Origin: Diacronema lutheri
Taxonomy: Eukaryota > Haptophyta > Pavlovophyceae > Pavlovales > Pavlovaceae
Assembly: GCA_019448385.1 (NCBI GenBank)
Contig: JAGTXO010000001.1
Span: 124,001 to 188,000 of the forward strand
DNA: 64,000 nt
Direction of reading: 5' to 3'
Part shown: positions 10,509 to 12,511 of the stretch, piece after piece
Numbering within the stretch: the stretch's first letter is position 1
Layout of the letters: every line of letters begins with the position of its first letter
Notes under the pieces: model-generated
The model's input: the letters and a program-made list of their open reading frames with translations, nothing else
Databases searched by the model: none
What the model was told of the DNA's origin: nothing
Program-made: the position numbers and the translations under genes

Positions 10509-10669
10509 AGGCGTAGCGGCCGGGCGAGGAGGCACCAATGCACGTGTGCACTACAAACCCGCGGCCTCCGCCCGGGCTGATCTCCCGCCGGCGGGGGTGG
10601 GCGCCATTTCTTTGCGCCAACAGGCACATTTTGACCCCAAGCATTTGACGAGGGGTGCGCGCCGTACGT

Positions 10670-12511
10670 ATGCAGGTCTTCGTGCGCGCCGAGCGGTCGC
10701 ACGCGTTCGCGGTGCGGCCGGAGACGACGGTCGACGAGCTGCACGCGCTCGTGCGCGCGCGGCTCGGCGCCGCCGCGCCGCCTCGCCTCGCGCTAGGCGG
10801 CCGCGCGATCGCGGACGGGCGCGTCGCGCTGCGCGAATACGGCGTGGGCAACGGCTCGACGCTCGACGCGCTCGGCCGGTTGCGCGGCGGGTGCGCGGTG
10901 GTGGCGGTGGTGCTCGCTGACGAGAGCATGCACGTTAACCAGATGATCTTCGACGCGCTCACCGTGCTGCAGCACCGCGGGCAGGACGCGGCGGGCATCG
11001 TGACCAACGAGGGCAAGAAGCTGCACCTGCGCAAGGGCAACGGCCTCGTTGCGTCCGTCTTCACGCAGGACTCGATGCTGCAGATGCGCGGCGCGATGGG
11101 GATTGGGCACTGCCGCTACCCGACCGCCGGCTCGAGCTCGAGCGCAGAGGCGCAGCCGCTCTACACCAACTACCCGTACGGCCTGTGCATCTCGCACAAC
11201 GGCAACCTGACCAACGCGCACGCGCTCAAGGGCGACGTCGAGGCGCACTGCCGGCACGTGAACACGGCGTCGGACTCGGAGCTGCTGCTCAGCGTGTTCG
11301 CGCAGGGCCTCGCCAAGGTCCGCTCCGAGGGCACCGACACGCTCGACGCCGACGCCATCTTCTACGCGTGCTCGGTTGCGTTTAAAAAATGCGTTGGCGG
11401 GTTCGCCGTCGCGCTCCTCATCAACGACGTTGGCGTCGTGTGCTTCCGCGACCCGTTCGGGATCCGGCCGCTCATGTTCGGCCGGCGCGCGCAGACCCAC
11501 GGCCGCTACGACTACGCGATCGCCTCCGAGTCCGTCGGCGTCGACATGCTGACGGACTCGTCGGGTGAGCTGTTCGAGCTCGTGCGCGACCTCGCGCCGG
11601 GGGAGGCGGTCTTCTTCCCAAAGGGCGGGCTGCCGCCACTCTCGCGCCACTGCGTGCCCAGCGCGCGCCTCTGCCCGTGCCTCTTCGAGTATGTCTATTT
11701 TGCGCGGCCTGACTCGGTGATGGACGGCGTGGCCGTGTACGAGGCGCGGCTGCGGATGGGCACGACGCTCGCCGCGAAGATCCAGCGGCAGCTCGGGCCG
11801 ATGTGGGAGGAGATCGACGTGGTGATCCCCGTGCCCGACACGAGCCGCACCTCCGCCCTCTCCCTCGCCGAGGCGCTCAACCGGCCATACCGCGAGGGCT
11901 TTATTAAAAACCGGTACATCGCGCGCACCTTCATCATGCCGGGCCACGAGGCGCGCAAGAAGGGCGTGCGCGTCAAGCTGAACACGATCAAGTCAGAGTT
12001 CAAGAACAAGGCGGTGCTGCTCGTCGACGACTCCATCGTGCGCGGCACCACCTGCTCCGAGATTGTGCAGATGGCGCGCGACGCGGGCGCGGCGAAGGTC
12101 TTCTTCTCGTCCGCCGCGCCCGCCGTGCGCTACCCAAATGTGTACGGCATCAACATCCCCACCAAGAGGGAGCTCATCGCGCACGGGCGCGAGGAGGCGG
12201 AGATCGCCGAGCTGATCGGCGCGGACTGGGTCGCCTACCAGGAGCTCGCAGACCTCAAGGCTGCCGTGCAGGACATCAACCCGGCATTGCGCGGCTGCAC
12301 CTTCGAGGCGTCCGTCTTCGACGGCGACTACCTGACGGGCGACATTGGCGAAGATTACTTCGCGCGAGACGAGGAGGACAGGTCGAGGCACGGGCGCGGC
12401 GGCGGCGAGATCAACATCGTGCAGATCCCGCGCGCTCTCTCGATGAAGGACCGCCGCCCGTCGATGGGCAACGCGCAGCGCGTCGCCTACCTCGGCGAGA
12501 CGCAGGACTAG
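10670..12511 (+). CDS. Ubiquitin-like domain fused to amidophosphoribosyltransferase (PurF/Ade4)
   Basis: Intronless ORF of 613 aa catalysing the first committed step of purine synthesis (glutamine + PRPP to phosphoribosylamine). Residues 1-74 form a ubiquitin-like domain that starts MQVFVRA and ends LRGG; it aligns without gaps to the 74-residue FUBI (FAU) leader and retains the C-terminal RLRGG of ubiquitin. Residue 75 is the catalytic N-terminal cysteine (CAVVAVVLADES), followed by LQHRGQDAAGIV, GIGHCRYPTAGSSSSAEAQP and HNGNLTNAH of the glutaminase domain. The phosphoribosyltransferase half has CLFEYVYFARPDS and the PRPP loop VLLVDDSIVRGTT (about residues 450-462). It resembles the E. coli/yeast class that lacks a propeptide and iron-sulfur cluster. 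There is no plastid leader, so a cytosolic site is likely. Processing after GG would expose Cys75, replacing methionine removal as the maturation step (inference). Confidence 0.95.
   Translation: MQVFVRAERSHAFAVRPETTVDELHALVRARLGAAAPPRLALGGRAIADGRVALREYGVGNGSTLDALGRLRGGCAVVAVVLADESMHVNQMIFDALTVLQHRGQDAAGIVTNEGKKLHLRKGNGLVASVFTQDSMLQMRGAMGIGHCRYPTAGSSSSAEAQPLYTNYPYGLCISHNGNLTNAHALKGDVEAHCRHVNTASDSELLLSVFAQGLAKVRSEGTDTLDADAIFYACSVAFKKCVGGFAVALLINDVGVVCFRDPFGIRPLMFGRRAQTHGRYDYAIASESVGVDMLTDSSGELFELVRDLAPGEAVFFPKGGLPPLSRHCVPSARLCPCLFEYVYFARPDSVMDGVAVYEARLRMGTTLAAKIQRQLGPMWEEIDVVIPVPDTSRTSALSLAEALNRPYREGFIKNRYIARTFIMPGHEARKKGVRVKLNTIKSEFKNKAVLLVDDSIVRGTTCSEIVQMARDAGAAKVFFSSAAPAVRYPNVYGINIPTKRELIAHGREEAEIAELIGADWVAYQELADLKAAVQDINPALRGCTFEASVFDGDYLTGDIGEDYFARDEEDRSRHGRGGGEINIVQIPRALSMKDRRPSMGNAQRVAYLGETQD

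Follow-up and report, generated by a model that had tools for sequence, protein, structure and literature searches.

A ubiquitin-like leader that ends exactly at the catalytic cysteine of amidophosphoribosyltransferase in Diacronema lutheri, a candidate substrate for deubiquitinases

A gene of the haptophyte Diacronema lutheri encodes, in a single uninterrupted open reading frame of 613 residues, a ubiquitin-like (UbL) leader followed by a complete amidophosphoribosyltransferase (PurF), and the GG at the end of the leader directly precedes the catalytic cysteine, Cys75. The gene lies in the window, the whole stretch of 64,000 nucleotides analysed here (C9:124001-188000), and the genome searched comprises 43,492,796 bases in 103 contigs. 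Ntn amidotransferases work through a free N-terminal Cys. We consider it probable, at about 0.8, that the product is a UbL-PurF precursor which a deubiquitinase (DUB), probably of the USP type, cuts after Gly74, giving PurF with a free Cys75 and its glutaminase switched on, together with a 74-residue UbL in a 1:1 ratio. We infer the cleavage itself, the DUB as its agent, the activity of the product and the fate of the UbL from the sequences described below.

The fused reading frame and its PurF part

An in-frame TGA, separated from the start codon by seven codons, makes the ATG at 10670 the first in-frame ATG (Table 1). Residues 2-86 hold no Met and the second Met of the frame is residue 87, so that Cys75 can be freed only by a cut between Gly74 and Cys75. 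The initial annotation had read here a continuous frame in which a UbL runs into Cys at the exact GG boundary, and both the frame and our reading of the junction bear this out.

Table 1. Features of the UbL-PurF gene, in positions of the window
Feature	Position	Strand	Remarks
In-frame TGA stop	10646..10648	+	5' of start codon
Open reading frame, 613 residues	10670..12511	+	
UbL domain, residues 1-74, no Lys, last residues GRLRGG	10670..10891	+	
GGC GGG / TGC, Gly73-Gly74 / catalytic Cys75, putative scissile junction	10886..10894	+	GG-Cys kept in 5/5 fusions
PurF, amidophosphoribosyltransferase, residues 75-613 and stop	10892..12511	+	TIGR01134; E. coli PurF 1ecb
GATase_6 match, part of Ntn glutaminase domain, residues 137-273	11078..11488	+	
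Phosphoribosyltransferase domain, residues 360-477	11747..12100	+	Pfam score 23.8, just below the cut-off of 26.3

Residues 75-554 score 443.4 bits against TIGR01134, the PurF equivalog model (cut-off 350), and Cys75 is position 1 of that model. The glutaminase motifs GHCRYPTAG, HNGNLTN and SDSELLL are intact, and so is the PRPP loop VLLVDDSIVRGTT of the phosphoribosyltransferase domain; we take these motifs to have their catalytic roles here. In all five fusions described below, the catalytic Cys, the glutaminase motifs and the PRPP motifs are kept. A GARS domain, which belongs to a later step of the purine pathway, is also encoded in the genome. The top-scoring solved relative is E. coli PurF (1ecb, E 1.8e-154), and the window PurF gives 518 bits against the E. 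coli enzyme, 252 against that of B. subtilis and 248 against that of Arabidopsis. By sequence, it is of the E. coli class, which has no Fe-S centre and no propeptide, as is described for the E. coli enzyme itself (PMC7056826). The same source describes Cys87 of AtGPRAT2, which is exposed after removal of a leader, as essential, its mutation abolishing activity (PMC7056826).

Further fusions and their relatives

Is the window gene the only one of its kind? With the whole protein as query, the genome yielded 20 rows, namely the window gene, three pieces of a PurF on C71, one GlmS-like gene and 15 ubiquitin matches, and the PurF genes detected are two, that of the window on C9 and C71:526274-528459, both of the form UbL-GG-Cys. 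By our own splicing, two introns of 113 and 111 bases divide the C71 gene into three exons, the first of which holds both the leader and the catalytic Cys (junction RLPGG-CGV). As the assembly is reported to be 80.8% BUSCO-complete (PMC8379373), a third, unfused PurF could be absent from it. The initial annotation had proposed to check its reading by looking for UbL-PurF fusions in relatives, and, besides the C71 paralogue, at least three were found, all of them JGI proteins: P0002 (618 aa), P0018 (623 aa) and P0016 (629 aa), the last with a leader incomplete at its start. With window residues 1-90 as query, the only fusions among 4231 candidates were the window protein and P0002; with residues 1-130 of the C71 protein, all but four of the best 120 of 5895 matches were ubiquitin-domain proteins, and weaker fusions may be hidden. 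P0002 and P0018 read unbroken across the junction. The tails of the leaders are GRLRGG in three fusions, GRLPGG in the C71 protein and GSLKGG, so that the residue preceding the invariant GG-Cys varies (R, R, R, P, K). Among the best matches in the open-licence literature, judged on titles and the starts of abstracts, no description of a UbL-PurF fusion was found, which is no proof of absence in print.

Among the nearest PurFs listed, the best 120 of 8000 scored candidates, 110 start with Met-Cys. The other ten are four fusions (that of the window included), five models without the Cys and one with a 14-residue extension which ends in Met-Cys. In a midpoint-drawn tree of 40 rows, consisting of 39 of these 120 and the C71 paralogue, the fusions form a single clade (100/100) together with P0121, from Pavlovales sp. 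CCMP2436, and P0122. This clade is divided into clade A, with the window protein, P0002 and P0018 (100/99), and clade B, with the C71 protein, P0016, P0121 and P0122 (98/94); the clade nearest to the fusions, as the tree is drawn, consists of P0156, P0175 and P0188 (95/90), all with Met-Cys starts. P0121 and P0122 are not counted as fusions since their models begin downstream of the catalytic Cys, and because they are coded as unfused the label "fused" needs three changes on the tree. The public model of P0121 probably has a mis-annotated start, which could hide a UbL leader. The simplest history would be that a UbL replaced the initiator Met once, in the pavlovophyte line, before the duplication into A and B. 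The architecture, the exact GG-Cys boundary and the need to free Cys75, as claimed at the outset, are supported, and gain strength from the second fused PurF of the genome, the three further fusions and the Met-Cys starts that prevail among the best-listed PurFs.

Another kind of fusion was met in the same set: in P0188 and P0200 (940 aa), PurF starts with Met-Cys and is joined to AIR-synthase domains (PF00586/PF02769), and P0188 sits in the group adjoining the UbL-PurF clade. A scan of viral contigs gave eight loci with PurF relatives, the best at 54% identity. Within the up to about 30 residues printed before the Cys, seven of the eight read Met-Cys and L027 reads Val-Cys, for which a GTG start would do; a UbL precedes the Cys in none of the eight over that span, and a viral origin of the fusion was rejected.

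The leader as a ubiquitin-like domain

In sequence and in the beta-grasp fold of ubiquitin, the leader belongs to the ubiquitin superfamily. Taken alone it scores 25.4 bits against PF00240, exactly the cut-off, and 19.4 within the whole protein, while the P0002 leader stays under the cut-off at 18.2; a PF00240 scan of the genome (32 rows) contains the C71 leader and not that of the window, so that such leaders are easily overlooked. As a single sequence, the window leader matches FUBI at E 1.9e-5 and wild-type ubiquitin at 7e-5, and a profile of the five leaders matches a single ubiquitin at E 3.2e-14. Identity to the ubiquitin of the same genome is 34/71 for the C71 leader and 26/71 for the window leader, and Phe4, Val5 and Arg6 are invariant in the four complete leaders. 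An AlphaFold model of the full-length protein gives the leader a low pLDDT; that of the leader alone, with four rows, is better, and both its ends are still weak. None of the three clade A leaders has a Lys in its 74 residues, whereas both of the clade B leaders that were read contain two. The chance of having none at the Lys rate of PurF is about 0.05-0.07 per sequence, and, together with the Lys residues of clade B, this led us to set aside selection against chain building as the reason for the Lys-free leaders, which are suggestive only. In the window itself, a 67-residue frame from 53063 onward on the + strand gives a weak, partial match to the PurF-leader profile (E 0.0024), which is probably due to chance in G+C-rich sequence.

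Is the leader maintained as a protein? Between the two paralogues, 36 of 72 residues (50%) are identical in the leader and 378 of 485 (78%) in PurF, that is, the leader evolves fast relative to the PurF part. Differences at codon positions 1, 2 and 3 number 26, 24 and 27 of 72 in the leader and 76, 61 and 146 of 485 in PurF, naive counting gives dN/dS of 0.92 and 0.33, respectively, and fourfold sites differ at 4/19 and 55/145. With third positions at 89-96% G+C, however, dS is understated and neither dN/dS nor the fourfold counts are decisive, and a neutral simulation was used therefore, in which 200 runs were matched on third-position change and the window leader was taken, as a simplification, as the ancestor. 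Only 4 of the 200 neutral runs reach the observed 36/72 identical residues, and both ends remained GG in 15% of the runs; the second-position G+C of the leaders is 0.57 and 0.43, against 0.74 in the simulation. That the leader is selected as a protein is supported in this way, though not overwhelmingly.

The likeness to FUBI that was seen initially stands in some points and fails in others. Like FUBI in FUBI-eS30 (FAU), the window leader has 74 residues, a two-residue deletion near Leu8, Gly69 in place of Leu71, a GG junction and a fast evolution (PMC10611586), and Gly69 is found in all five fusion leaders. His11 and Phe13 of FUBI are present in the window leader but not in the other three complete leaders. 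Unlike FUBI, which has Val40, Pro47 and an RXLGG tail, the window leader has Arg39, Ala46 and RLRGG at the places mapped via an alignment with ubiquitin (PMC10611586); among the five leaders, Arg stands for Val40 in all, Pro47 is found in one (P0018) and RXLGG in none. FUBI is described as varying widely outside the Phe4 patch, the tail and two patch residues (PMC10611586). Since the window leader lacks the pair Val40 and Pro47, the RXLGG tail and eS30 as its partner, we do not class it as FUBI. The eS30 of this genome (C50:58095-58271) appears to be unfused, with a predicted MGKVHGS start read by eye across one intron, and in 5 kb beside it no UbL was found (best E 0.32 with the PurF-leader profile; no match at E 1 with ubiquitin). 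A move of FUBI from eS30 to PurF is possible but unsupported, given this apparently unfused eS30 and a leader without the diagnostic FUBI residues. A separate candidate UbL-GG precursor was seen at L041 (C28:12500-16500, locus 1414-2763, +), where the UbL tail VHALGRLRGG is in frame with an Rtf2 RING-finger protein which starts GGDGG (PF04641 126.2 bits, PF00240 35.9 bits).

Proposed exposure of the catalytic cysteine

The UbL occupies the place where most of the nearest listed PurFs have the initiator Met alone. How, then, would the Cys be exposed? The Met-Cys relatives presumably get their free Cys by removal of Met. In UbL-PurF, a DUB, probably of the USP type, would cut the Gly74-Cys75 bond after translation and would thus expose the Ntn nucleophile in place of methionine aminopeptidase. 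The predicted Cys-first chains after the cut would start CAVVAVVLADESMHVNQ (C9) and CGVAGVILADENK (C71); Cys75, as the free N-terminal nucleophile, would switch on the glutaminase of the first committed enzyme of purine synthesis, and for every PurF one UbL of 74 residues, ending in a free GG, would be produced. A ubiquitin fold with its GG at the Gly74-Cys75 bond is the kind of substrate that DUBs cut. Strong matches to the USP family occur in the genome, many of the 103 rows of that search being weak copies of a single repeated element. The genome also encodes ubiquitin precursors that have to be cut after GG, namely polyubiquitin and, as read by eye, Ub-L40 and Ub-S27a. Because both detected PurFs are fused and have their motifs intact, purine synthesis would depend on removal of the UbL. 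The GlmS-like gene of this genome encodes another Ntn-Cys enzyme, in which Met immediately precedes the Cys, and UbL fusion is therefore no general device for Ntn enzymes here. As to the kind of DUB, FUBI with Arg restored at its tail place is described as gaining partial reactivity with USP42 (PMC10611586), which together with the ubiquitin-like RLRGG tail makes a general DUB plausible; by analogy with FUBI, Gly69 and the two-residue deletion could favour a USP36/USP16-like enzyme, and Pro just before GG might slow the DUB on the C71 protein. In the search for USPs (149 of 217 candidates scored), 30 places on many contigs, such as C4:445095, C70:231634 and C75:1026584, gave near-identical weak scores in open frames of 439 residues, as would be expected if a USP-like protease domain were carried by a repeated and possibly mobile element.

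The main rival to the DUB is self-cleavage: like members of the B. subtilis/plant class, PurF itself would cut off the UbL, which would serve as a folding aid or an inert propeptide, and a DUB would be superfluous. Autocatalytic removal is reported for PurF propeptides, eukaryotic PurFs being stated to carry a short one (PMC7056826), and the junction lies directly at the Ntn Cys. Nevertheless, the window PurF is by its scores of the E. coli class, whose E. coli enzyme has no propeptide, and self-cleavage would not explain why a ubiquitin fold with GG is kept in all five fusions; we regard it as unlikely. Of the proposal in the initial annotation that a DUB matures PurF, the architecture and the GG-Cys boundary hold, the DUB is suggested by the ubiquitin fold together with the GG that all five fusions keep, and self-release stays beside it as a rival.

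Might the UbL be left in place, with PurF dependent on ammonia, or with the UbL gating PurF or targeting it to the proteasome? Many UbL domains stay attached permanently, and a domain under loose constraint would be in keeping with how fast the leader evolves. Permanent UbL domains are stated, for example, for ribosome assembly factors (PMC8122580). However, GG is placed exactly at the Cys with no evident reason unless it is cut, and the glutaminase motifs kept in 5/5 would be unexpected if the glutaminase were dead in both PurFs detected in the genome, as it would be without the free N-terminal Cys that Ntn glutaminases need; we find an uncleaved UbL very improbable. Even harder to credit is an artefact of the gene model, in which the UbL stretch belongs to the 5' UTR or forms an exon of its own and the enzyme begins in some other way. 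Although the opening ATGCAG-GTC might in theory be taken for a splice acceptor, leader and catalytic Cys share one exon in both paralogues, P0002 and P0018 are unbroken through the junction, the window frame has no Met between residue 1 and Cys75, and the composition at codon positions suggests a leader selected as protein.

Cleavage by a DUB is then to be compared with known systems. By analogy, the closest mechanism is that of Sde2, and the closest algal architecture is that of ubiquitin-NiSOD, in whose mature form, too, the N-terminal residue serves in the active site. Like UbL-PurF, Sde2 has an N-terminal UbL whose GG lies directly before the functional chain; this UbL is removed right after GG by DUBs, Ubp5 and Ubp15 in fission yeast, and both this removal and the residue that it brings to the front of the chain are described as necessary for the function of Sde2 (PMC9508853). 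A need for the exposed Cys would likewise be expected in the activity of UbL-PurF. Unlike UbL-PurF, Sde2 (UbL-GG-Lys) is a splicing regulator and its exposed residue is no catalytic nucleophile; the two are likened here by architecture and mechanism. Ubiquitin-NiSOD fusions, in which an algal enzyme carries N-terminal ubiquitin, are described from haptophytes and other phototrophs (PMC6332867), and differ from UbL-PurF in having true ubiquitin and a metalloenzyme partner. PurF does not appear among the ubiquitin-fusion partners of B. natans and G. theta in Tables 1 and 2 of that study, nor does "purine" in its main text (PMC6332867), and the significance of such ubiquitin fusions is called unknown in a review (PMC8122580). 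Propeptide PurF/PPAT of B. subtilis, plants and human resembles UbL-PurF in that a leader has to be removed to expose the catalytic Cys; its leaders are short and reported to be self-cleaved (PMC7056826), whereas UbL-PurF has a folded UbL on a PurF of the E. coli class.

One may go further, tentatively and with more doubt than belief, and suppose that in pavlovophytes PurF is born inactive and a specific USP-type DUB sets the amount of active PurF, while the released UbL, Lys-free in clade A, serves as a signal or modifier which reports the output of the purine enzyme; the nucleophile of an Ntn hydrolase would then be unmasked by the ubiquitin system, not by methionine aminopeptidase or by self-cleavage. 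Should the cleavage be confirmed, a deubiquitinase would be the obligatory maturation protease of a central metabolic enzyme, and purine supply would be tied to DUB activity in a group of algae used in aquaculture; we know of no other enzyme in which a DUB is the route to Ntn activation. A wider idea is that a cut directed by GG can expose whichever N-terminal residue is chosen, and that ubiquitin fusions have persisted for this reason. If this is true, Sde2, ubiquitin-NiSOD and UbL-PurF would share one logic.
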